NCBI GenBank assembly: GCA_035079385.1
Contig: JAVHKY010000040.1
Location: 1,426,001-1,490,000, forward strand
DNA length: 64,000 nucleotides
From: Aspidiotus rigidus
Lineage: Eukaryota; Arthropoda; Insecta; Hemiptera; Diaspididae
Direction: 5' to 3'
The notes beneath the pieces were generated by a model that saw nothing but the letters and a program-made list of their open reading frames with translations, was not told where the DNA came from and ran no database searches. Shown one piece after another: positions 26,394 to 58,015 of the stretch. The position numbers were made by a program, and so were the translations under genes. Each line of letters opens with the position of its first letter. Position 1 is the first letter of the stretch.

Positions 26394-29300
26394 CTTCTCC
26401 GGAGCCCATAGTGAACTATAACGAGTAAGCCCACGGTATCAACCAGCACAGTTGACAGTTTGCATTATGGGAGTGCTTGCAAAAACAGGTACAAAAATCG
26501 TAAGAACGAATCGTAAAGTAGGTAGGTACTAATTGAATAAAACGAAAAGTTATATGTACACGACTAACTTATACGAGAACGGTGGGTAAAAATGACGCGA
26601 TATTAAAAAGTTTCGCTTTTTGTCGTATTCGTGCGAGTACACGCCAACTTCGAACGATCTGCACCAAAATTTGATAGTCACGAGCTCAAGAGCGACTATA
26701 ATAATGTTCAATTAATACTGCGAGCTCTCTACTAATGCACTGTATACTATACCTAATACAGTTTCAATTTTAGCCTGTACACCTACGAACACAACGCACT
26801 TGTCTGTTCATTTCAGATTTGGGCGCTACTCCACCGCACCGCTAATCGAATGTCTGGGAGCATGCGTTTTCTCAACCGGGCATTGCGCATGGTTTTTTGA
26901 AGTCGAGCTCGTACTTGTATAACTGCACGATGGTCATTTCAGTTTCGCATGTACATGACTGTCGTGTCCACAATCTTCACTTACTGTCACCTCTTGTACC
27001 TACCTTAGTAATTCCTTGCTTTTACAACAGCTATCGTCATACTGCCAAGACTCTGCTTTACACAGAATACTATTCTCCTATTCGGCTCACTAACCGTATT
27101 TTGCAGCTTATGTGGCCGTGGCAGTTATGATGGCTATATTATTTCAAAGCACGATGTCTAAAAAAAAATTGTTTTACGAATGAATGATGTTCTTTCCTAC
27201 CGTATTCAAGATGACGATAATGATGAAACAATCGAATGCCAGAATTGGAGAAAACGAGATACGACGACGCGTCGCGCGCCTATTAAAAAAGCCTGTCGAC
27301 TAAAACTCATTGGGTAGGCTACTTGGATTTTGGGTTTGTGGTGTACGAAAATTTCCCGGATAATCTGTATAGATAACCAGTGAATCCTGTACATTGCAAT
27401 ACCTAAAACGTTGACGTTTCTATTCTAGATAAACGACCTATAGACACTTACCTACCTATTTTAGATTCTATAGCTTCCGTTGAATTGAATTCATGCTTCT
27501 CAATATCATTGTTGTTTACGCACGCAAAGTCAACTGATTGTAGTTAAAGGAAAACATTTAATTTGATCTAGTGAATTGAATTCAAATGTCGGACTTCGGA
27601 AATTTCGTAATTCACTTGAACAGAAATGAAAAGAGTCAAGATTCGCAAAATGTTGTTTGAAATCGTCAAGATCTACCTGCGAGTGTAGATTTTTAAATTC
27701 AAGCTTTATTAAAGTTCTCAAGTATTAACAATTTTCTTAGAGAACAATGATGGTTCGTGAAGAGTTTATCTAACGAAGGGTACAAAAAATATGAATAAGA
27801 ATTCAAAAAATCGTAAAGTTCGCGTGAAAAAGTAGGTACCTAGGTACCTATTTACCGTGTGATATTTCCATGCTTATTTGTAAACTGGTCTTTGCGCGTT
27901 TTATGTTGACAAATTTATACACTAAAAAACCCTACTTAATTTTCTATCTTTAATTCGAAACTCAAAATTTTTCCTAACGAAGCGGACACTTTTAATTATA
28001 TGGATCAATAATAATCAAAAAATAGTAAATTTCAAATTAATCAATTGAAAGGAAGAATCCATTTGGTAAAACGGTCCTTAGAAGTCAGTTTTTCAAGAAA
28101 TTGTACCAAGAAGTGTGGATTGGAGAAAGGTTACTCCTGACAGCCGCACTGTCTGCGTCTAACTACTGGTGATTAGGTAGTTAAAAACTTGTATATAGGA
28201 ATTTTCAGCGCTGTAGTGCTTCCACAAGGTCAAATGCGATCAAGAATACCATAAGATACAGATATCTTGCTTGATAATAATAAAAGGTGGAAAAGTATAT
28301 CTATGAGATAAGTGATTGGATCTCCTAAAAATAAATTTATTGCTCTCATATAAGCCTTTATTTGAACTACTTATTATTTGCTAATAATATTTATTCCCAG
28401 AACGGAAGAAAGCTGTTCTCAGCCTTTGCCATTCAGATCTACCCTGCACCACCTGGAGAAACATTCTGTGCGCAAATAATTGGTACGAATCATCAACCCA
28501 TCTGATTTTCAGTTTCCTTCTATTTCTTTTTTTATGACTTCACTACCAGGATGTCCCTCGGGTAACACAGTCATTAGGCTGTCGATGTCGACAATTCAAT
28601 CGAAAATTTCATCGACAACTTGAATTCCAAAATTTTGAGCTTGGGAATTATTTTAACTGATGTCCTCAGGCAGCATGAGAAATAACAAGTGAGAACTTGT
28701 ATTTGAGTAAAAGGTTTGTTCATTCCTTGCTTATAATTGGCCTGGGATATTATAATATCGACGTCCGCCCGTTTTTGATACGGGTACCTACTGTAAATAG
28801 GTCGACATCGACAGTCGAGCTTATTTTCGACTTACTTAGGCGACAGAAAAAAGTGTCTTTATAATTTGTTGCCACGAACATCTATAAATGCCTCCACATG
28901 TCGACCCCTGTTGATGTTCAGTCGAGTCGACTTTGATATCGACATCAACCTGCTTGTACGTATCAAAAACGGACGGATGTCGACCTCAGATTTGGGTCGA
29001 CTGTGCTGCGAGGGGTGCTTTCAGTTACCTATCCAGTTGTCACCGTTCTGTGCTGAATAAACCGCTCGGCCTCATTTTCTATTTCTAGACGTAGGTACCT
29101 ACCTATTTTGACAATGTTAAGTATAATTGTTCGAAAGTGTATGATTTACCTATATTTTTAATCAGTACGTTTATAATAAAAATTATCACCGCGATGAACC
29201 TGATATTTCTCGTTTCCTTGATAAGATAGATACTCAATTTTGAGAGGCACTTACCACGCCGTTATCAAGAAATATCAATTACTTCGAATTCTGTTTAAAG

Positions 29301-32429: not shown

Positions 32430-33189
32430 TATGTTCTATTTATAAAGGAGATCAAACCAAATCACTTAAATGTACCTAAAATGTAAAGGTGAACTATTAA
32501 TTTGTCAGAAATAACAAACACAGGTAACATCAGTAACACTAGGAAACACGGGAAAACTGATAGATGAGGTATCTAGTTCAAAACTCTAAACGCACAGACT
32601 AACGTCTAAATTCCAGACAGTTCACTATATTGTCGGAGTGTGAACTTTTTTTTACTTGCGTAATGTTTACATTTGTACATTACATTTACATGTACCACAA
32701 CGGAACAATTCAAATTTCTTCTTATTGGCTTCCAGGTTTTCGTTTGAAATTTCGACGCTGTATGCAATGTTACCAACAACGTGTGGGAAAAATTATTCAC
32801 TTCTGTAGCACCATTTCTCCTGACATTTTCATTATTCGCGATTCATTTTCGAAATATGTATGATAATTCCATATGTAGGACATAATTATTTATATAAAAC
32901 TAATTAATCATTGAAATTTTGTAATTAATGCGCGTAAATGCAATCTACATGGCAGACACTCCTTGAAGTAGTAAGAGAAATATTTTATTTGTATCACGTG
33001 ATCAATTTCAACCAATCCTGGCTGTACCACACTACCTTATAGACAGAGGCGAAAAGAGCAGGCTGCCATCTTCACTGGATTTGTTTGTTGTTCCCTCAAA
33101 AGAGGCACACGTCTAAAATGACTGTCAAAGCGCTAGTGTAGCTCAAAGAGCAACTTCTCCCTATTATTATCTTTTTGTAGAATACTCAT
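32430..33189. other. Gene-free boundary segment
   Basis: Upstream flank of the 188-residue gene and left border of the AT-rich block. Base composition changes near 33190. I saw no clear terminal inverted repeat or target duplication here. Confidence 0.45.
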
Positions 33190-33226
33190 TATCAACACTC
33201 ACACATTTGTATATAAAAATGAATTA

Positions 33227-33598
33227 TTAATTTTTATTTTTATAATTCTTCTTATCTGACTCATTTAAATTAATTGTTTCCCACTCATCACCTATATCTG
33301 GAGGGTTTTCTGGAAAGTTATTATTTTTAGAAATATTACTGACTCTACCTTTACTAGGTTTTATGTAATTTGTACTAGTAGCTATTGGCCTATTAACCTG
33401 ATTTGATAAACAAAATTGTCCTAATCTATTTCTAGGAGTGAGAATATGTCTGTTCTTTGTCCCATGGGGAATATTCCAAAGTTTCATTTTTTTACGTACA
33501 AAAGAATCAGACACATGATATTTTTTTATAAACTCAGATACTGGATTTTTTATAAAATCGAAACTGATCATCAATTCTTTTATTTTTTCTAATTCCAT
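33227..33598 (-). CDS. Small helix-turn-helix-like protein of the PolB element
   Basis: An intact 123-residue ORF, transcribed divergently from the coiled-coil ORF at 33784. The N-terminal 45 residues read as a helix-turn-helix of the resolvase/Psq sort (EFIKKYHVSDSFVRKKMKLW, then NIPHGTK). The remainder is an Asn/Lys/Ser-rich tail ending DIGDEWETINLNESDKK. It could bind DNA as a regulator or in element maintenance, but that is inference from fold-like pattern and position only. Composition matches the element, not the host. Confidence 0.55.
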   Translation of the reverse strand: MELEKIKELMISFDFIKNPVSEFIKKYHVSDSFVRKKMKLWNIPHGTKNRHILTPRNRLGQFCLSNQVNRPIATSTNYIKPSKGRVSNISKNNNFPENPPDIGDEWETINLNESDKKNYKNKN

Positions 33599-33783
33599 TA
33601 TGTTACCTAGCTGAGTTTGTATTTATAAATAAAAAATTTCTATATATTATGGTATACTGTATATAGTATATGGTCCATGGTTTGGTATATTGTATATAGT
33701 ACAGTATGCGGTCTGGTACATAGTTTGGTATACAGTTTGGTACATGGTGTCAAAAAATGAAATTTTTTTATAATAAATAAAAA
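33599..33783. promoter_or_regulatory. Divergent intergenic region with iterated GGTATA/GGTACA words
   Basis: Between two divergent ORFs. The words TTTGGTATATTG, TCTGGTACATAG, TTTGGTATACAG and TTTGGTACATGG repeat about every 15-40 bases at 33650-33750, with TGTATATAGTA twice. The pattern fits a bidirectional promoter or an iteron-like origin; neither is shown. Confidence 0.45.
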
Positions 33784-34494
33784 ATGATTTTCTCAGTAAT
33801 TAGTAACTACTCAATTTCAAAAGAAGAAATGGATTATGTCAATTTACTAGTTTCAAAGTATCCTGAAATAAAGGAATTGAAAGGTACAATTAAATCATCG
33901 AGTCAAACTATAATTAATCAATTACATGAAGTTTATAAGAAAAATAATCTCGATTTGATGGAATTTGAAAATGAGAAAATATGTATTTTGAAAGTTACAA
34001 ATTTATTTTTCTGTTTTAGGGTATTAATGGCTGCAGTTAATAAAGCAGGAGGCCAATTAAAGAGATTATCCCAAGCTAATAATCAAGTAATGAAACAAAA
34101 AGATAATATAATTGAAGAAAATAATAAAAGAATGAAACAATTGAATAAAGAATTGGAAGAAATGAAGAAGGAATTGAGTGAAAAAGGTAAAAAACAAGTA
34201 GAGTCTATGCAGCTAAAAAATAAAAAAATCATTGACTTGAAAAATCAAATTGTTGTAACTCCAATGAATTTTGGTAAGACTAAGGCTAATAGCATTGCAG
34301 AATTTACTGAAAATTTAGGACTTTGTTTTTCTGATTTTAATATTGAAGATGGATACATTAATGTTGATAATTCACAAATAATAGTAAATGGAAAGTACAT
34401 TAATGAAAAGAAAAAAGAATTTGGCTTGAATGGAAGAGATGCACCAAGAGGAGTTAAGGATAATGATGAAATAATTATTAAAAATAAAAAATAA
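33784..34494 (+). CDS. Coiled-coil protein of the PolB element
   Basis: An intact 236-residue ORF starting at ATG 33784. Residues about 85-155 are a long Lys/Glu/Asn-rich coiled coil (NNKRMKQLNKELEEMKKELS). The C-terminal 70 residues form a compact segment (EFTENLGLCFSDFNIEDGYI) closing with DNDEIIIKNKK. No catalytic motif was recognised. A segment near 33980-34019 ending TTTCTGTTTTAG resembles an intron end, so the true product might be spliced or may start at the ATG at 34026. It lies first on the rightward strand and could be structural or a replication accessory. Function is unknown. Confidence 0.65.
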   Translation: MIFSVISNYSISKEEMDYVNLLVSKYPEIKELKGTIKSSSQTIINQLHEVYKKNNLDLMEFENEKICILKVTNLFFCFRVLMAAVNKAGGQLKRLSQANNQVMKQKDNIIEENNKRMKQLNKELEEMKKELSEKGKKQVESMQLKNKKIIDLKNQIVVTPMNFGKTKANSIAEFTENLGLCFSDFNIEDGYINVDNSQIIVNGKYINEKKKEFGLNGRDAPRGVKDNDEIIIKNKK

Positions 34495-34519
34495 TCAAGT
34501 TACTTGTATTTTTATAATA

Positions 34520-34790
34520 TATCTATACTTTAGGAATGATTTGATGTCTTGGAAGTTTTTGGAAGGTTTTTGTTAGGTTTTGAGAAGGTTTTTATGTCTT
34601 AGAAGGTTTTTGGAAGGTTTTGAGAGGATTTTTATGTCTATTTTTCCTGTCTATTTTTTTGTCTTTTTTCATGTCTATTTTTTATGTCTATTTTTATGTC
34701 TAGTTTTCATGTCCATTTTTTCCTTATTAAATTATTGGAAGGTTTTTTCCTTATTAAATTTTCATTAGAAATTTATTTCTCTTTAAATAC
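34520..34790 (+). repeat. Low-complexity GGAAGGTTTT / ATGTCTATTTTT region
   Basis: Two short words repeat in series: GAAGGTTTTTGGAAGGTTTT-like units up to 34630, then ATGTCTATTTTT-like units to 34720. TTTCCTTATTAAATT follows twice. The 62-residue frame across it is a repeat artefact. Confidence 0.7.
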
Positions 34791-34800
34791 TCAGTTATAT
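34725..34800 (+). promoter_or_regulatory. Putative element promoter motifs before zinc-finger ORF
   Basis: TTTTTTCCTTATTAAATT occurs twice and TTTCTCTTTAAATACTC once, 25-95 bases before the ATG at 34822. The same motif precedes the polymerase (35260-35275), and a variant precedes the ORF at 39906 (39838-39855). That recurrence suggests a shared element promoter. Confidence 0.4.
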
Positions 34801-34821
34801 TTTTATTAGTTAAAGTTCAAG

Positions 34822-35238
34822 ATGGAATTTATTGATAAACACACTTCAACTTTGTTAGATTTAGAGAATAGTAAAGCTATTGACAAAATGTTGATGAAAT
34901 AAGGATCAACTTTTAAAGAATATGATGTTGATGAATTTTTACAAAAGTTAATGTTTACAATACATTTACTTGAAAATGGAAAATATTGCACTAAATGTAA
35001 GAAAAATAAAAATATAGAAGAATTTGCTAGAAATCAAAACTGATGTAAAGCATGTAAGAATACACCATTTAAAGAATACTATAACAGAAATCAAGAAAAA
35101 ATGAAAGAAAATTTGAAAAAAGATTATGAAAAAAGAAAAAATCTAATGATATGTACTTGTGGTAAAGTCATAAATTCTGTATCTTACAAAGCACATTTAA
35201 AAACAAAATCTCATTATAATCTTCTCAATGAAAAATAA
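34822..35238 (+). pseudogene. Broken zinc-finger ORF of the PolB element
   Basis: One frame of 139 codons runs from ATG to TAA with two in-frame stops: TAA at 34900 and TGA at 35041. Between and after the stops the sequence is clearly protein-like. A first Cys4 finger has CTKCKKNKNIEEF on one side and CKACKN just after the TGA. A second finger is ICTCGK, ending in AHLKTKSHY. The TGA falls where related fingers usually carry an aromatic residue before the cysteine, as expected of a point mutation. Such fingers occur in small proteins of large DNA viruses; the role here is unknown. Confidence 0.7.
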
Positions 35239-35286
35239 AAAAAATTCTTATTTAATTTTTTTTCCTTATTAAATATAATAATAAAA

Positions 35287-38200
35287 ATGAATTCAAAAAA
35301 TCAAGTCTCAATAAGTGTTATCAGAAATGAGAGTGGAAAAAGAGATACAAGTATTGCTCAATGGATTCAGTTTTTTAAAGTTCATAATTTCTATGCAAAT
35401 AGAACAACAAAGCAAATAGAAAACTATTTAAGAAAGTATAGAGTTTATATAGCTTTTGGAGGAAGAAGAGTAGTAGAAAAATTAAATGAATTATATTTCA
35501 TATTATTACAAAAATTAACTCAATCAAGATTAACTCAACCAAATAAATGGCAAATTACTTTTACATTAACAAAGGCAGAAATAAATACATGGCTTACAGG
35601 AACTCCATTCAAGTTTGATAAAAATATTTTTAGTACCGATAAGATCAAAGATTTAATCAATTCAAATTTCATAAAAATATTTTTAGTACTGATAAACCAG
35701 ATCAAAGATATAATCAATTCAAATTTCATAAAGATGTATTTAGCTCAAGTAATGAGAATGAAGAAGATATATTTGGAGTAAATGAGTTTAAAATTAAACC
35801 TAAATTTGTAGCTGCAAATTTTGCTAGCAGACAGACACAATTTGAAATTCAAAATGAATGGGGAATTCAAGACTTGGAAGAGTTTTTAGATATTATGAAA
35901 AAATCTACTTTCGGACTTCTTAAAAAATGGATACATTTACATGATGGAATTAGAGCTAATTTTTGTGTAAGTGCAACCTATGAAAGAAGAGGACATACAG
36001 AAACCATTGAGACTGATACAATGCATTTACAAACTACAAATTACATATTTCTTCGTGAATCTAACTTGGATGAGATGTATGATAATATTACTGACTATAT
36101 AATAGAAAGACATGAAAATATACAGGATAATTTAGAGGGTACTCAATGGGTTTTACTATCAATTAATAGTTTTAGAATTAATATAAATAGGTATGATCCG
36201 CTTAGAGCTGGTTCTTACATTGAGCTCCCCAAAATTTTAGCAAGTAAGAAAGCCATCATAAATATTAAAAATGAGGATGATAATAAATGTTATTTATGGT
36301 CCATTTTAAGTGGTCTATTTCCAGTAGATAAAGATCTACAAAGAGTAGCTAAATATAAAAAATATGAAAATATGTTTGATAAAGCTTTAGAAGGGATAGA
36401 ATTTCCAATAAAAGTTCAAAATAATGATAAATTTGTGAATAGAGTTAATAATCTCAATTTAATTGAAGGAGGATTATCAATTAATATATATCATCATAAT
36501 AATCAATATAAAATTCAACCTTTATCAGATATAACAAAGGATGAAAAGAAAAATCATATTGATTTACTATTTCTTAAAGATAATTCAGGAAATTCTCATT
36601 ATTGTCTAATTAAAGATTTATGGAAATTAGTAGGGAAACAAGTTACCCAAAATTGTAAGAAGAGATATCTTTGTAAAATGTGTTTAAATAGTTTTCCATG
36701 TGAAAAAATATTATCTGATCATAAAAATTATTGTGGATTGAATAAACCTGCTAAAGTAATTTTACCTAATAAAGCAGATAATATTGTTGAATTTAAAAAT
36801 TATAATCATTCAATGAAAGCCCCATTTGCTATATATGCTGATTTTGAGAGTCTTATAAAAAAGCTTAATCAAGCAAGAAAATTAAATGTTAAGATAGAAA
36901 AACTAAGTAAAAAATTGAATAAAACTAAAGAAGAAGTTGAAAAGTATGAATCTTATACAACAAAGCTTCAGAGACATTTTCCAATTAGTTTTGTCTATTA
37001 TATTAAGTATTCTAATGGAGAAATTAAAGAGAATCTATTTGAATATTTTGGATTAGATGCTCCAAAGAAATTATATGAAAAACTAAAAGAAGATGCAATT
37101 TTCATTGCTAAGGAATATTTAGATAAGAAAATAAAAATGAAAGAATTATCTGAGACACAAAAGATGGAATATAAATACTCTAAAACATGTCATATGTGTG
37201 AAAGAAAACTTGAAGATACTCCACCTCTTGTGGAAAAAGAAATTCGAGTATGGAATAAAAAAATTGATATTATTTGTAGTATTTTATTGAAGATTGAAGA
37301 TGAAGATAGAAAAAAAGAACTTAATGATGAACTTTCAAAATTAAAACAGTTAGTTGATACTACACGAGTGAATGAAGATTTCAACAAAATAAAAGTTAGG
37401 GATCATGATCATTTAACTGGAGAATTTAGAGGAGCAGCTCATAGTAATTGTAATCTTAATTATAAAGTTCCTAGATTTATTCCTATTTATTTTCATAATT
37501 TTTCTGGATATGATGCACATTTATTTGTTAGAGAATTTGGAGAGGATTATGATAACATTAAATTAATACCAAATAATGAAGAAAAATATATATCATTTTC
37601 TAAAATTGTAAAATATGATTCAGGTTTTACAAATAAAAAAGATGAAATAATAAACTTTAATATTGAGTTAAGATTTTTAGATTCCTATAAATTTCTATCA
37701 AGCTCACTATCTGAATTGGCTAAAAATTTAAAAAGATGTCACTTCAAAAATCTAAAGAGATGGTTTAATGAAAAAGTATCTAAAAACCTATCTGAAATGG
37801 AATGAAAGTATTTATTTAAATTATTAAGTAAAAAATTAGCTTATCCATATGATTATATGAATTCATTAGAAAAATATATTGAAACAGAATTACCCTCGAA
37901 AGAAAACTTTTATAATCTATTAAATGATGAACATGTTGATGCTGGAGAATATCATTATGCTCAAGAAATTTGGAAGTACTTTAATATTAAAAATATGAAA
38001 GAATTCACAATGTTATACAATACAATAGATGTACTCCTACTAATACTGATATTAAGGGAAAATTTTAGGGAAACGTCACTCAGAATATACAAATTGGACC
38101 CTGTTTGGTATTACACAACTCCTGGATTTGCTTGGGATTGTATGCTGAAAACAACTAAACAAAAGTTGGAATTATTAACTGATGTAGATATGTTATTAAT

Positions 38201-39535
38201 GTTAAAAAGGGCTAAACGAGGAGGAATTTCTCAGTGTTCAAATAGATATGCAAAGTCTAATAATAAATATATGGGAAAGAAATTTGATAAAACTGAAGAT
38301 TCTATATTTATTCAATATTTGGATGCAAATAATTTATATGGATGGGCTATGTGTAAATATTTACCTTATGGAGGATTTGAATGGAGAAATCCTGAATATT
38401 TTAATGAAGAAAGAATTATGAAAATGAAAGATGATCAGAAGTTTGGATATCTTTTTGAAGTTGATTTAAAAATCCTAAAAAATTACATGACAAACATTCT
38501 GATTTACCTTATTGTCCTGAAAATGTAATTGATGACAACCAACTTCCAAAATTATTTACAACATTGTATGATAAAAAGAAGTATATCTTGCATTACTTAA
38601 AGCTTAGACAAGCTCTTAAAGCTGGATTGAAATTAGAGAAAATACATAGGGTTATAAAATTTGATCAATCTGACTGGATGAAGATATATATTGAAAAGAA
38701 TACAAAATTAAGACAAGAAGCTAAGAATGACTTTGAAAAAGATTTCTTTAAGTTGATGAATAATTCTGTTTTTGGAAGAACAATGATGAATATTAGGAAG
38801 CATGTAGATATAAAATTAATTTCTGAAGGTAATAAATATACTAAGTATGTTTCAAAGCCTAATTTTGAGAAATCAACCTTTTTTGGAAGAAATCTTGCAG
38901 CTGTACAAATGAGAAGAACAATGATTAAATTCAACCAACCAATTTATGTAGGAGTAGCTATTTTAGATATTTCAAAAACATTGATGTATGATTTCTATTA
39001 TAGATTAAAAGGAAGATATGAGGATAGAATAAAATTATTATATACTGACACTGATTCATTAATTATATCTATAAAAACTAAAGACTTCTATGAAGATATG
39101 AAAGGAATGATTAATGAATTTGATACATCAGACTATAAGAAAGAAAATATTTATGGTTTACCACAAGTTAATAAAAAGGTATTAGGTAAGTTCAAACATG
39201 AGATGAATGGGAAAATTTTTGAGGAATTTATTGGACTAGCTTCAAAATTATATTCTAATAAAGTTTTTGCTTCAAATGATGAAATGAAGAAAGCTAAATG
39301 AGTAAAGAAAAATATTGTGAAAAATCAGATAACTCATAATGATTATAAGATATGTTTAGAAAAGAAAGTAACTAAGACTATTAAACAGAAGATGATAAGG
39401 AGTAGAAAACATATAATATTTATACCATTGAACAGAATAAAAAAGGATTAAGCTCATTTGATGATAAAAGACAAACTGATACATTACCATGGGGTATTAT
39501 AATACAATACCAAGAGATAAATTTATTCAACATTT
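35287..39535 (+). pseudogene. Family B DNA polymerase (Polinton/adintovirus type), broken
   Basis: A replicative polymerase of a self-synthesising DNA element, now interrupted. Coding segments: 35287-35643, a continuation in another frame to a TGA at 37803, 37806-38470, a shifted frame to a TGA at 39300, then a decayed tail to about 39535. In order: an N-terminal region; a C2H2-like finger (YLCKMCLNSF, near 36665); exonuclease motif I IYADFES (36830); a CxxC pair (CHMCERKL, 37190) with DHDHLTGEFRGAAHSNCN (37401), the zinc/endonuclease VII-like insert of this family; exonuclease II-like FHNFSGYDAH (37491); polymerase A LDANNLYGWAM (38320); B KLMNNSVFG (38752); C YTDTDSLI (39043). Breaks: a frame-changing small deletion inside a 57-bp tandem repeat near 35643, TGA 37803, a frameshift near 38470, TGA 39300, and another shift near 39420. 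Not functional as it stands. Confidence 0.88.
35612..35735 (+). repeat. Tandem repeat inside polymerase N-terminus
   Basis: A unit of about 57 bases (core AAATATTTTTAGTACYGATAA, then ATCAAAGAT and AATCAATTCAAATTT) is present twice, plus a partial third copy at 35722. The first copy lacks four bases relative to the second, which throws the reading frame. Confidence 0.8.
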
Positions 39536-39606
39536 GAAAAATCTTAATAAAAAGGAAGTTATTGAAAATTCAATATGAAACATTTAATAAATAACTATAA
39601 TTAAAT

Positions 39607-39811
39607 ATGGAAAACGTTGAAGATAGTGGTTTTATATATAATGAAATTTGTAGAGAAATTTTGAAGTAACTTGGAATTTTTTCAATAAATTACATCAATT
39701 TCAAACTGAACCTGATCTTGAATATGAATCTGGAAATGAATCTAATATAGAGATAATAAATGAACAAAAACTAATTCAGAAACTGAAGCTGATGAGATAC
39801 CTAGAAAATAA
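39607..39811 (+). pseudogene. Degraded short ORF of the PolB element
   Basis: ATG at 39607 opens 20 codons before a TAA at 39667. A second frame then continues with acidic protein-like sequence (EPDLEYESGNESNIEIIN) to a stop near 39811. It reads as one small acidic protein broken by a frameshift. No family recognised. Confidence 0.35.
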
Positions 39812-39905
39812 ATGAATACCTATTAAAAAGTTTCCCTAATTTTTTTCTCTTTAAATTTTTTTCTATAAATAAAGAGTTGAATATCTACTAATTTTTCCAG
39901 CTAAT

Positions 39906-40184
39906 ATGCCTTGTCATACATCTATTTCCAATAAAAGTGAACAAAAAGATAGATTGAAAAAGAAAAAATCATATATAATCAAACATATAAAAAGAAATGA
40001 TGACTTGCTTGAAGAACTTCAATCATTTAAAAATGATGATAATGAGGAGAAATTTCTCAAAAAATATTTAGAATTTAAACATGATGAAAATCTGTTAATT
40101 GATAGGATAAACAATTTTAGGGAAGAGTTAAAAAAATTAGGACAGAAAGTACCTCCTAAATTAGATGTGGGGTATGGCTTGTAA
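39906..40184 (+). CDS. Small coiled-coil protein of the PolB element
   Basis: An intact 92-residue ORF after a T-rich CTCTTTAAAT leader. It is highly charged and Lys-rich, with two predicted helices (LLEELQSFKNDDNEEKFLKK and RINNFREELKKLGQ). No motif was recognised. It lies 30 bases upstream of the zinc-ribbon ORF on the same strand, so the two may be co-transcribed. Confidence 0.5.
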   Translation: MPCHTSISNKSEQKDRLKKKKSYIIKHIKRNDDLLEELQSFKNDDNEEKFLKKYLEFKHDENLLIDRINNFREELKKLGQKVPPKLDVGYGL

Positions 40185-40213
40185 AAAGTGAAATAATAAT
40201 ATAAACTATTAAT

Positions 40214-40492
40214 ATGATTCACCAAGTAAACATAATGAGAACTTTGATAAGAAATTGTAGACTTTGTAGAAAATCAATTAAACATTCAATTATAGAAATA
40301 GAGGTTAGACCTTATTTAAATAAAGAAACAAGTACATGCTCTCAATGTGAAACTACTCTCATTAGATTTGTGGATACTTATGATGAAGATAAAATTGTAC
40401 TTATTTGTTATAAGTGTAAAGAAGAAACTAGACATTTTAAGAGTAATCCCCGGTATCATCAATGTACAATATGTGGTAAATTTAAAAAATGA
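40214..40492 (+). CDS. Zinc-ribbon protein of the PolB element
   Basis: An intact 92-residue ORF with four CxxC pairs: CRLCRK, CSQCETT, CYKCKEE and CTICGK. They would form two zinc ribbons. Starts are possible at 40214 or at the Met eight residues in (MRTLIRNC). Viral and element-encoded zinc ribbons often act in transcription or nucleic-acid binding, but nothing here fixes the role. It is the last ORF before composition returns to host-like. Confidence 0.6.
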   Translation: MIHQVNIMRTLIRNCRLCRKSIKHSIIEIEVRPYLNKETSTCSQCETTLIRFVDTYDEDKIVLICYKCKEETRHFKSNPRYHQCTICGKFKK

Positions 40493-40691
40493 ATTCACAT
40501 TTTTTTCTCATTTTCTAATACCCTTAATGAAAAGATTTTATTTACATGTGTCTTTTTTGCACGTGTTCATCCACAGTACTAGAGTGACTAATTCCTTTCT
40601 CTGTCATATACGTACTTACTCATTAGTCTTATGGAGCAACGAATCCATCATTCTGTGTAAATACGAATAATAGTAACTAAATTCATTGGAA

Positions 40692-40790
40692 GTCTATGTG
40701 GTCTAGTGGGTTAGCGTACTGCCTATAGTACACTAGAGTACTGCCAGTGAAACGAGAGTACCGCGGTTCGAATCTCACTGCCGATATGAA
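40692..40790 (+). repeat. tRNA-derived SINE-like head
   Basis: TGGTCTAGTGGGTTAGCG resembles a pol III A box and GGTTCGAATCT a B box, about 60 bases apart. Stems do not pair like a real tRNA (the T arm is poor), and an insert separates the arms. It is immediately followed by a CGCTCTAGCTTGGAGCG hairpin that also forms the tandem repeat at 41281. Confidence 0.5.
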
Positions 40791-40842
40791 GCGCTCTAGC
40801 TTGGAGCGCGAGATATGAAGTAGGCTAGATTCACTGTTGTAG

Positions 40843-41280: not shown

Positions 41281-41463
41281 TATTTGAAAACGCTCTAGCT
41301 TAGAACGTGAGAATTTGATGACGAAGTATTCAGAAAACGCTCTACCTTCGAGCGCGAGAATTTGATGACGAAGTATTCAGAAAACGCTCTAGCTTGGAGT
41401 GCGAGAATTTGATGACGAAGTATTTGGAAAACGGTCTAGCTTGGAGCGCGAGAATTCTATGAC
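41281..41463 (+). repeat. 47-bp tandem repeat, four copies
   Basis: Each unit carries a small palindrome (CGCTCTAGCTTGGAGCG) followed by CGAGAATTTGATGACGAAG. A lone related unit lies at 40788-40820, on the other side of the 430-bp repeat. Confidence 0.9.
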
Positions 41464-53146: not shown

Positions 53147-56100
53147 TTATTGTTGCACAGCCATATTCGCAGCGATACTAGGATTGTTTATGATTTCGCC
53201 TAAACTATCCAATAATTCTTTTCGGTAGTCGTCGAAGTCACCATCCATTTCGTTGATAGTTTGATCTTCAATGACCCACAGTGAACATTCAGTTTCACGA
53301 ATCAATCTTTCGTCGTGAGAAACGATTATTACACCTGAAATTTAAACCAATTCACCTGACGATAATACGTACGAAGCAGAAAACTGATACCAATTTGAAG
53401 TATACCTACCTCCTTTGTATTCATTAATTGCTTCCGCTAATGCATCGATAGATTCGATATCAAGGTTATTTGTAGGTTCATCCTGGAGAGAAAAAAAATA
53501 AGTTGGTAAAAATGAAAAATCGAATACAGATTTGTGAAGATTAAAGGAAGAATGATTCAAACAAAGCGCGAACGTTTTATATTACCAAAATTATGACATC
53601 CGGAGCATTTAACGTAAGTTCGGCAAGAGCCACTCTTGCTTTTTGTCCTCCTGACAGATCTTTCATTTTGATAGTGTGAGCGTGACTAGCTAAACCAAAG
53701 GTGCCCAGTTGTTTACGCGCTTTCTCGTACGGCAAATCAAATAATCTCATTAAATACTCAGAGGGCGATTCTTCAGCGGTGAGATGTTCTCCCGAATGTT
53801 GATCAAACCGACCAATACGCTTTAAATACAATAGAAGAAAGGATAGCGATATGAAGTCGAGATGTTTCTTAGGAAAAGAAAAAAAAAACCTACCAATCTA
53901 TGATTTTTCTTTTGTTCTCCTCTCTGTGGTTCCAGATCTCCATTTAGTAGTTTTAGGAAAGTGGATTTGCCGACTCCATTCGGCCCAACGATAGCTACAC
54001 GGGAATTCAAATCGATACCAAATTCGACGTTGACAAACAGAGGTTTCTGATCCGGATATGCAAACGTTACATTATGCAAACCAAGAATGGGTGGCTGAAG
54101 AGGCGGTGGATCCGGAAAAGAAAATTTTACAATGTAATCTTTAGGACGTTGTAGTAACTCTACAGGTGCTTCGTCTTCTTCGGTCTTCTGTTGTTTACTA
54201 CCTCGGTTCTTCTCTTGTTTGCGAGTGAGCGTTTCTTTTTGTTTCTTCTCCTAAAACATCAGGTAAAATCGGATTCCAATAAGACAAGCTTTTCAAACTC
54301 CATGACATATCTATTTCCCAAAATTACGTACGTACCGCTGCCTTCTTTGACTGTCCGTGTTGCTTCATTTCTTTCAGTTTCTTCTCCTGTTTTTCGTACT
54401 CTTTTATGAATTCTTTACGTTTTTGAGCATACATCTTTTTGAACATACTGTAATTGCCTTTATAATAAAACAATTTACGTTGATCTAAATGAATAATTTC
54501 ATTACAAACGTTATCCAAGAAACTTTGGTCATGCGATACAACAAGCAAAGTTTTTTTCCACCCTTGTAAGTAGCTGTAAAATGTAATCAAATTTTCATCA
54601 GCATTTCATTATTCCATGGAGACGAATTTTTCTTTAAAAAAATACTATCTTACTTGTCCAGCCAGATGACGGCATTCAGGTCTAAATGGTTTGTAGGTTC
54701 ATCGAGTAACAACAAAGTGGGTTCGACAAATAACGCTCTGGCTAGTGACACTCTCATCCTCCATCCTCCAGAGAAATTCTTAGTCGCTCTATCTTGCATA
54801 GATTTTGAAAATCCGAGACCAGCTAAGATTCTACGAGCACGTGGTTCAGCAGAATCAGCTCCGATTGCTTTCAGTTCATCGTACACCTATAACAGGACGA
54901 GCAGAAGGTAAAAAGATGCTAACAGAAATTGAGACGAAAATCTTTTAAGATATGAACGCACTTCATTCAAACGATCTTGCTGCGATACGTCACCCTTATC
55001 TAGCGCAGATATCAATCTTTCACACTCCGCTTTTAGCTCGGTACGTTTGGTATCTGCTTTCAAAACTGATTCAACAGCAGTAAGATCATCGGCTACTACT
55101 TCTTGTTCGCAATACAAGATATCAATATTCGGAGGAATTGCGAATGCTCTGGACGCAATGTGCCGTAGCAAAGTTGTTTTACCGTGTCTGCAAAGAAAAT
55201 AAGAACGTCAAGTTCGTTTCTAAGCACTTAAATGACATATGTATTCTTGTAAATATTAAGAAGAGCTAAGCGAGGAAAAGGATGGTCAATCCGAGGAACA
55301 CTAGGCAATTTTATAAGAAGTTTGGAAAGTAAACAGAGAACGAGAATTTGTACAATCATGAGAAGAAATATATTCGGAAATATTCACAGTCCTATAATAC
55401 GATTCATTAGAAAAAGCCTAATAAAAGAAAAAATTCAAAAATCGTTGTTTCCAATGAACAATCTGATAGGTAATTTGTGAGTTTATTATTCGTTCTTTTT
55501 CTCAAAAATTCTTTATAAATGGAACGGGTCTGCCAATCAATTCTAAGAATTCATGATTGATATGAGTTAAAATGAGTTAAATCTGATGAAAAGTATTTTT
55601 ACCAAAAACTCCTGATGTATTAAGAAAACTTTAGATCTGAACAATTTCTGTTCCTCCCGGCACAAGCTCGATCCCCAAAAGGTAAACAATACTAGTATAT
55701 TAGAAAATCGAATATTACTCTGATAAATCGAAGAAGATGAAATTTTCTAACTCACCCATTCGGTCCCACAAGACCATATCTACGTCCTTGAGCAATCAAT
55801 AAATTGGCGTTCACAAATAAATCGTTCCCCTTGGCGGATATACTAAAATTTTCCACTTTAATATCAACAGCAAATTCCAAAGCTGCCATTTGACCGACAC
55901 TTCTCTGAGTTTGAGATACGGTGAAGTTTTCACCTAAATCGCTATGTCCCTGTCCTCCTTTTTTTGTCATCGTTTCCATTTGTTTCTCGTACTCCAACTA
56001 CAAGAATTTCGGAATCAATTTAGTTATTTGATACAGCACGGCAAGAGATGAATCAAAATAGTATCTAATTATAACTTACGGTTTTCTTCAATTTTTTTTT

Positions 56101-57553
56101 CTCCTTATGGGTCAGTTTTTTTGTTTCTATAAGAATAGAGCATTATTAGAATTAATTCAACATATCAACATCTCAGAGCAATTTCTGGCCAAAACTAAAA
56201 TTGCAAACCTGTTTCATTCTCTTGAGGTGGTTTCGTGGACGCCTTTTCAATTTCAATTGTTTCTTCTACTGTATTGGAAGAGCTTTCACTTTCATTGTCA
56301 TTTTGCGTAATTTCACCAGAAATAATTCTATCAAGTAACGATACTTTCAAAGGTTTCGATTTCTTTTTTTTAGACGATTCACTTTTTTCGCTTTTCTTCG
56401 ACTTTGAGCCAGTCTTTTTTTCGGATTTTTCATTTCTTTTCAAATCATTATTTTCGGTCATATTTTCTATTTCTGCATCAACTTTCTCAACAAATGATTC
56501 ATCTTTCTCATTTCTTTTGAGCTTCGAGTTTTCAACTTTTAAAATTTCTCCTTCGTTTTTCAATGCTGAATATTCTTCTCCTTTAGATTCTACGTCGTCT
56601 GTAATCGTTTCTTCAGCAACCCCTTCCTTTTCTACGTTCAACTCTTTCATTTCGTCACATAGTTCCAAGATCTGATCAGTCTCTGCGAAAGTCACTTTCT
56701 TACCATTATCATTGGGATTTTTTTTTTCCTCATGCTCGGCTTCTACGGATTCCACACGTGTGACAAATAGTTCTTCAGGCTGAGTCTCTTCAAACTCCTC
56801 GTCTGATTCTTGCTTTTTTCTTTTACTTTTTTTACTTTTCCGTTGCTCAACTTTAGGTTTGATTTTGTCCGTCACTTCTATCGTTTCTTCGACTTCTTCA
56901 GAAATTGAAATGTTTTCAACAACATCATCGTCCGAATCAGCTTTCTTTTTCTTCAACTTCTTTTTGTTCATTTTTGTAGGAGCTTCGTACTCATTATCTA
57001 ACTTACTTAATTTGCCTCTCTTCATCGATAGTTGGTCTTCATCATCGTCCTCAGAACCAAATTCATCTTTCTTGGTTTTACCTTTTTTTTGTTTCTGAAC
57101 CAAGATTTGTTTATCTTTCTGTTCATCAACGATTTCTTTTCCTTCCTCAGCCGCAGTTTCAACATCGTTCTCGTCTTCCAAATTTGCTAGTTTCTTCTTT
57201 ACTTTCCGGTTAGTTTTCGGAGGTGTTTCACGTTTATCAATATCTATGTTTCGCCCTTTCTTCTTCGACTGAAATTCTTCATCATCATTTTCAGATTCAG
57301 ATTCAAATTCATCTTTCTTAAATTTATTTTTCTTAGCTTTCTTTGATTTCTCGACTTTGGATTCAACTTCGTCGTTTTTGCTAGCAAAGTCGCTAGAACT
57401 ATTCTGATTTTTTTTATTTCTTTTCTTACTTTTGCTGGATTCTTCCAAATCCACAACCTTTCCTTTACCTTTCTTTTCAGCGAGCATTTTTTCATCTTCA
57501 TCGGAACTTTCGAAACCATCGTCTTTCTTACCCTTGTTTTTTTTCGGAGGCAT
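53147..57553 (-). CDS. ABCF1: ATP-binding cassette sub-family F member 1 (ABC50)
   Basis: Soluble twin-ATPase of the ABC-F class without membrane domains. ABC50 binds eIF2 and ribosomes and promotes translation initiation. Ten exons in transcript order: 57553-56209, 56126-56080, 55997-55756, 55187-54962, 54886-54654, 54573-54336, 54250-53894, 53819-53586, 53482-53410 and 53334-53147. They total 3,183 nt, or 1,060 residues, all in phase with GT-AG. Exon 1 encodes an unusually long Lys/Glu/Asp/Ser-rich N-terminus (about 448 residues). Cassette 1: Walker A GPNGHGKTT, split across exons 3/4; signature FSGGWRMRV; Walker [14 protein letters not shown]. Cassette 2: Walker [10 protein letters not shown]; signature LSGGQKARV; Walker [11 protein letters not shown], split across exons 8/9. 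The linker KKLKKTLEYEKQ and C-terminus LWVIEDQ...[12 protein letters not shown] match ABC50. The stop overlaps an AATAAA sequence. The start [10 protein letters not shown] at 57553 was preferred over an upstream in-frame ATG at 57580 because it matches the family start. Confidence 0.95.
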
Positions 57554-58015
57554 CGTAAGCAATTTAGCAATCAGCTTCACATAAAAAAGAATCAGGAATA
57601 TTGAGTAAACCTAATATCGTGCTTCAAAAAAGACCGACAGTTCACTCCCATAAAAATTTCCAGACGGTCAAGTATACAATACTAAATGAGTAGGGCTTAC
57701 CGTTACGTCTCAACGTCAACCATCAACCATAATATAGACGATCGGGTGAACTTCTAAATAATATACTCCAATCAAATGAAGCGGGAAGTCTAACGAAAAT
57801 CATAAAATAATGAAATGTTACAGAACTACAGGGAAGAGGCAAGGGAAACTCTTATGATTGCCATTGCATGAAACAAAAATAATAATACCTATATTAATAT
57901 TACATATTCCTGAAATATATTTCACCTGCTGCTTTCACGTGGAGTCCTATTATAGACTGATATAGGTAGACAAAAAATCGAGATATTAATTCCTCTGACG
58001 TCATACGGTCAATAC
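57554..58015. other. ABCF1 5' flank
   Basis: Promoter-side region of ABCF1. No further gene, and no TATA element at a convincing distance. Confidence 0.4.

Follow-up and report, generated by a model that had tools for sequence, protein, structure and literature searches.

Is the AT-rich, polymerase-bearing block in the genome of the scale insect Aspidiotus rigidus what is left of a Maverick/Polinton, or is it an element of a distinct kind? The block lies in a 64,000-nucleotide stretch of contig JAVHKY010000040.1 (assembly GCA_035079385.1, positions 1,426,001 to 1,490,000, forward strand), referred to here as the window; besides a gene for a family B DNA polymerase (PolB), the block contains five small open reading frames (ORFs). 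The original prediction, made from the sequence alone, left both readings standing. The present analysis favors the first, because the PolB belongs to an integrase-linked set, is a pseudogene, and lies in a block without recognizable ends; the block is thus quite probably a decayed, truncated endogenous Maverick/Polinton (adintovirus-like) copy in an insect genome.

The GC content per 1-kb bin was 23-29% at 33-40 kb and 31-42% in the remaining bins of the window, with means of approximately 25% in the block versus approximately 36% in the surrounding window. The limits of the block were set by composition, which changed sharply at both of them:

33161..40544, no strand assigned, AT-rich element (maximum-scoring segment of a dinucleotide log-odds model; limits by composition, not necessarily the true ends)

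ATG-started ORFs of 90 aa or longer numbered eight in the block versus a mean of 0.13 in 500 random sequences of matched dinucleotide make-up. The GC profile, the segment, the ORF excess, and a PolB profile matching at E-values down to 1.6e-174 all bear out the AT-rich PolB block that had been predicted. The features of the polymerase gene, delimited by tblastn of three related proteins (P0002, P0003, and P0005) and by the PolB profile, are as follows:

35287..39537, plus strand, PolB pseudogene
35287-35781 (homology to 35643), 35643-37802, 37806-38525, 38465-39298, 39302-39451, and 39406-39537, plus strand, open pieces of PolB
35607..35743, plus strand, 57-nt tandem duplication (2.5 copies) inside PolB at the site of a frame change
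36840 (DFE), 37497 (NFSGYD), 38016 (YNTIDV), 38322 (DANNLYG), 38750 (KLMNNSVFG), and 39041 (YTDTDS), plus strand, PolB motifs by pattern

The gene is a pseudogene of a Maverick-group family B polymerase. The E-values of the profile ran from 1.6e-174 to 1.3e-4 over the last five pieces, and identities to P0003, P0005, and P0008 were 45-78% over long stretches. The first piece, a 164-aa ORF (35287-35781), starts with the PolB N-terminus (61% identity to residues 1-123 of P0002); it is therefore no separate gene. The reading frame changes between 35643 and 35757, near 38468-38474, and near 39406-39421, and in-frame TGA stops were present at 37803 and 39299. All six exonuclease/polymerase motif patterns tried are still legible but scattered over separate open pieces. 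The C-terminal piece matched neither solved structures nor sequences of the phage and plasmid collections. The best Pfam match in PolB, an endonuclease VII stretch at E 0.021, stayed below threshold; such a stretch has been reported for insect Maverick PolBs too (PMC5803895).

The Spiroplasma genetic code (TGA read as tryptophan) was considered because both PolB stops and one of the two stops in a cysteine-rich frame upstream of PolB are TGA. It was rejected because, judged by eye, tryptophan is encoded by TGG in the PolB pieces and neither PolB TGA sits at a tryptophan of P0003.

Relatives of the polymerase were retrieved with residues 200-719 of the longest piece, which gave 3438 proteins at E<=0.001 among 7990 scored, the best 120 being listed. 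The nearest PolBs among the matches listed were an ENA protein (85% identity), a Spiroplasma ixodetis-labelled protein (78%), and a Planococcus citri protein (52%), followed by aphid proteins. A tree of 65 rows, made up of the window plus 64 of these 120 matches, was built by a quick method from rows of unequal length and rooted at its midpoint. It grouped the window with P0001 and P0002 at a Shimodaira-Hasegawa-like approximate likelihood ratio test (SH-aLRT) support of 100, and this group fell in a 9-row set with Planococcus citri, Aphis, and one unnamed row (SH-aLRT 100). The 9-row set was contained in a 26-row set (SH-aLRT 100), which also held Uroleucon PolBs and a few metagenome rows. 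The PolBs of aphid Mavericks (Uroleucon formosanum and Aphis) and of Planococcus citri share this fully supported set with the block. Every insect named in the set is a scale insect or an aphid, and the set by itself points to a sternorrhynchan host, probably a scale insect. The polymerase was thus rightly placed with the Polintons by the original prediction, which had missed that the gene is broken.

Aphid members of the set have an integrase with or beside their PolB. In three Uroleucon gene models of the 26-row set (P0008, P0058, and P0070), an rve domain is joined to PolB, and two of them (P0008 and P0070) also begin with a stretch that we take, from its motif, to be an adenain-like protease. 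The integrase part of one Uroleucon model was used as the query of a second search, which gave 772 proteins at E<=0.001 among 933 candidates, the best 120 being listed. The Uroleucon integrase P0132 (QTP88_001047), which runs from integrase into a C2H2-like finger, and the PolB P0006 (QTP88_001048) carry consecutive locus tags. Metagenomic contigs of sizes 20497 (P0016/P0143, jgi) and 7084 (P0005/P0229, ena) recur in the PolB and integrase lists under the same source label; this pairing was made by equal size only and is suggestive, not proof, and other sizes below 100 kb, compared by eye, gave no further recurrence. Both PolBs (P0016 and P0005) are inside the 26-row set. Of its three branches, the one that unites the aphids with P0016 and the one formed by P0005 thus appear to have an integrase.

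The integrase was predicted to be missing from the block, and this holds. A profile of nine integrases, run against 2109 stop-to-stop pieces of at least 20 aa from the whole window, gave a best E-value of only 0.49, and none of the 12 best rows from tblastn with 122 queries fell within the block. The best integrase-like tblastn match (28168-28365; 35% over 66 aa, E ~1e-4, one internal stop) was obtained with six of the 122 queries at E 0.002 or better and lies approximately 5 kb left of the block; it was rejected as a chance match because it is outside the AT-rich block and invisible to the integrase profile. Aphid Mavericks have an integrase with or beside PolB, accompanied in P0008 and P0070 by a protease-like stretch; in the block, no integrase was found. 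Since the aphid and P0005 branches of the 26-row set appear to be integrase-bearing, the absence here most likely represents a loss, by truncation or deletion.

The original prediction had also pointed to free or viral copies as informative. The IMG/VR viral contigs gave no close copy and one distant relative only, L001 (36% identity in PolB), and the genome-contig scans likewise gave one distant relative only, L002 (34%), in a metagenome-assembled genome (MAG). L001 has ORFs alongside PolB that are presumably ATPase- and capsid-like, and L002 has, in a row, what we take to be a PLA2-integrase, an adenain-like protease, and PolB, these names being given by motif. L002 (1-7163) is a contig in a Muriicola MAG and appears to be a eukaryotic Maverick-like contaminant of a bacterial genome record.

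No ATPase or capsid gene came to light either, in agreement with the original prediction, by Pfam, by the ORFs of the distant relatives, or by ORF size, which is a weaker test than that applied to the integrase. The Pfam scan of 10 pieces of the block gave no family above its cutoff, and the non-PolB ORFs of L001 and L002 found no match in the block, again a weaker test than the integrase profile. For an FtsK-like ATPase, the Pfam scan and the low-complexity-filtered comparison with the non-PolB ORFs of the distant L001 were both negative. For an adenain-like protease, the N-termini of P0008 and P0070 and the ORFs of L002 gave no block match among the rows listed, a comparison of limited sensitivity. 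For a capsid or penton protein, no block ORF other than the PolB pieces exceeds 236 aa, and the comparison sets were only distant. Two short frames of L001 matched the block in an unfiltered search (E 7e-5 and 0.001); they were dropped because they were absent in the filtered search of ORFs of at least 100 aa, in which PolB alone matched and the others gave E>=0.27.

Terminal repeats, which had been named as a feature to look for, did not rise above shuffled sequence at the block limits: the best ungapped score for terminal inverted repeats near the limits was 12, within the 8-15 of 40 shuffles. The longest words shared by the two limits were 11 and 9 bp, the ends themselves not being located; random pairs shared an 11-mer in 16 of 300 cases and a 9-mer in 129 of 300, so there is no convincing target duplication. 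The target-site duplication of Mavericks is 6 bp. As neither an integrase nor terminal repeats were found, the block was filed as a decayed remnant with a Maverick-group polymerase and not as a Maverick element.

Intact Mavericks replicate by a protein-primed PolB and insert by an rve integrase. Judging from its relatives, the intact ancestor of the block would have copied its own DNA and inserted it in this way, and the integrase, protease, ATPase, and capsid genes would since have been lost or cut off from the present copy, in which neither PolB replication nor integrase insertion should be able to act in cis. The copy is presumably inert because those genes appear to be missing, its ends are unrecognizable, and its PolB is broken. 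Such remnants are a common and ordinary kind of genomic fossil. In PMC4028283, nine of 72 Polintons are given as lacking the major capsid protein, the protease, and the ATPase together. For the aphid Schlechtendalia chinensis, PMC9783078 counts 3899 Maverick copies, of which 218 are full or slightly truncated (5008 to 14868 bp), and reports none with all 10 ORFs intact.

The genes and motifs beside PolB are as follows:

33227..33598, minus strand, 123-aa ORF with three predicted N-terminal helices
33784..34494, plus strand, 236-aa coiled-coil ORF, open throughout
34716, 34743, and 35258 (span 34716..35274), plus strand, three exact copies of the 17-mer TTTTTTCCTTATTAAAT, 5' of the cysteine-rich ORF and PolB
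34822..35238, plus strand, cysteine-rich, zinc-finger-like frame broken by an in-frame TAA (34900-34902) and TGA (35041-35043)
39906..40184, plus strand, 92-aa charged ORF with no family above the curated cutoff in a Pfam/PHROG-type scan
40214..40492, plus strand, 92-aa ORF with paired cysteines, zinc-ribbon-like, with no family above the curated cutoff

At an E-value of 1 or better, the 123-aa ORF matched nothing in Pfam or PHROG. Its single-sequence AlphaFold2 model had a mean predicted local distance difference test (pLDDT) score of 49.5, and its helices (3-12, 20-27, and 31-39) fell in segments scoring 67-83; on this model, the product is tentatively helix-turn-helix (HTH)-like and possibly DNA-binding. 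The AlphaFold2 model of the coiled-coil protein contained a long helix (58-155; mean pLDDT 62.8); both models were too weak to support a fold search. Five relatives were 82-94% identical to the coiled-coil protein, two of which are full-length (236 aa), and the cluster of P0121 represents 27 sequences. Its 5' part may reflect an optional exon or a second start, because the relatives P0123 and P0124 begin at the residue matching Met82. A splice-acceptor-like stretch, identified by eye, lies at 34000-34029, directly ahead of Met82. The cysteine-rich frame had a weak PHROG endonuclease match (E 0.017). With up to three mismatches, the 17-mer had eight matches in the window versus 2.72 expected, a count reached by none of 100 shuffles, and it is a candidate promoter motif, possibly from promoters of the ancestor. 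We propose that this lineage carried the coiled-coil, HTH-like, and cysteine-rich ORFs as accessory genes. Unlike the aphid members, the block has coiled-coil and HTH-like ORFs 5' of PolB. Taken as a remnant, it marks accessory genes that travel with hemipteran Mavericks.

A parallel in gene content is a 4868-bp contig of a Spiroplasma ixodetis MAG, whose neighboring tags (H9Q67_04820 and H9Q67_04825) mark a PolB 78% and a coiled-coil protein 90% identical to those of the block. This contig (P0002 and P0125) is most likely insect Maverick DNA that was binned with Spiroplasma for its AT-richness, both being approximately 24-25% GC; AT-rich insect DNA of this kind can apparently be binned into Spiroplasma genomes. 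PMC8025503 gives 24.2-24.6% GC for cochineal S. ixodetis MAGs, and the H9Q67 tag prefix was not found in that paper.

Several results weigh against a plain remnant. Besides the open coiled-coil ORF of the block, the database has two full-length proteins of this kind, and the tag of the coiled-coil protein P0125 adjoins that of the PolB P0002 on an equal-sized contig in the Spiroplasma-labelled assembly. The pairing is thus common to at least two copies and is not a unique product of deletion. Among the best 120 of the 772 integrase rows, most of which have no organism label, no row bears a scale-insect name or is on a contig sized as the nearest PolB and coiled-coil ones (2939, 4868, 1455, 1035, 2090, and 12095); no integrase-bearing copy of this very family was among the matches listed. 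The tree, in addition, is rooted at a midpoint and does not resolve the order of the three branches at the base of the 26-row set.

An alternative is a scale-insect lineage that arose from Mavericks, shed its integrase and capsid genes, and retained a compact cassette of PolB with coiled-coil, HTH-like, and zinc-finger-like genes, the present copy being a dead member. The cassette would be mobilized in trans by full Mavericks, through their borrowed integrase, or replicate as an episome. We regard this as unlikely, though it is the best placed of the alternatives. Points in its favor are a second contig on which the coiled-coil gene accompanies PolB, the 27 sequences of cluster P0121, the repeated 17-mer 5' of two genes, and the lack of a scale-insect name among the 120 best integrase rows. 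The block, however, has no terminal repeats, no convincing target duplication, and a broken PolB; elsewhere in its PolB set there are integrase-linked branches, so the loss would be secondary, and no result supports mobility without an integrase. Such a lineage, if real, would be a case of a Maverick on its way to a polymerase-only satellite. Among the literature titles and abstract openings listed, none described the cassette.

The distinct or linear-plasmid-like element offered by the original prediction gained no positive support beyond the other contig with the coiled-coil/PolB pair. We consider it improbable that the block is an endogenized segment of a PolB virus, whether bidnavirus-like or segmented, or an element of linear-plasmid type. 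Small linear segments and a PolB do occur in insect viruses: possible Vesanto virus segments are 3.3-5.8 kb (PMC8363768), and Bombyx mori bidensovirus has segments of 6.5 and 6 kb and a Polinton-derived PolB (PMC4061559). Bidnaviruses and Vesanto virus are likewise small linear DNAs with a Polinton-derived or bidnavirus-like PolB; however, these papers describe inverted terminal repeats and parvovirus-type genes, none of which was found in the block. No inverted terminal repeats were seen at its limits, the 10 Pfam-scanned pieces gave no family above cutoff and hence no parvovirus-type capsid or superfamily 3 helicase (no dedicated comparison was made), and the C-terminal PolB piece had no phage or plasmid match. 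The PolB also groups with integrase-linked hemipteran PolBs, an indirect argument since the tree holds no known bidnavirus sequence. A contaminant or virus contig misjoined into the insect contig is the least probable explanation, as the sharp composition change at both limits and the relatives in bacterial MAG contigs would allow it, but the decay of PolB and the annotation of relatives on long contigs of aphids and mealybugs fit old insertions.

The decayed-Maverick reading also sets the block beside Drosophila-associated adintoviruses, which are likewise insect PolB elements of the Maverick kind. They differ in being 13.3-14.6 kb long, and the one described first has genes for homologues of PolB, integrase, capsid, protease, and FtsK (PMC8363768).

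The rest of the window appears to be of host type. Of its 76 ORFs that reach 85 aa, 62 were scanned; domains of an ABC transporter and of Elongin A were found among them, and a weak anticodon-binding match fell slightly below its cutoff. A 471-aa minus-strand open frame (56198-57610), with no Pfam match at E 0.01, lies in a region of strong strand asymmetry at 56000-58000 (AT skew down to -0.32). Rfam and tRNA scans of the whole window found nothing. The stretch at 40690-40795, in which ARAGORN likewise called no tRNA (zero in the window), resembles a tRNA-derived short interspersed nuclear element, with a B-box-like GGTTCGAATCT. A 47-bp tandem array (3.8 copies, 90% matches) at 41286-41463 and a 25-nt piece akin to it at 40789-40813, the latter roughly 245 bp beyond the composition segment's right limit, were also noted; the array looks like a host repeat family.

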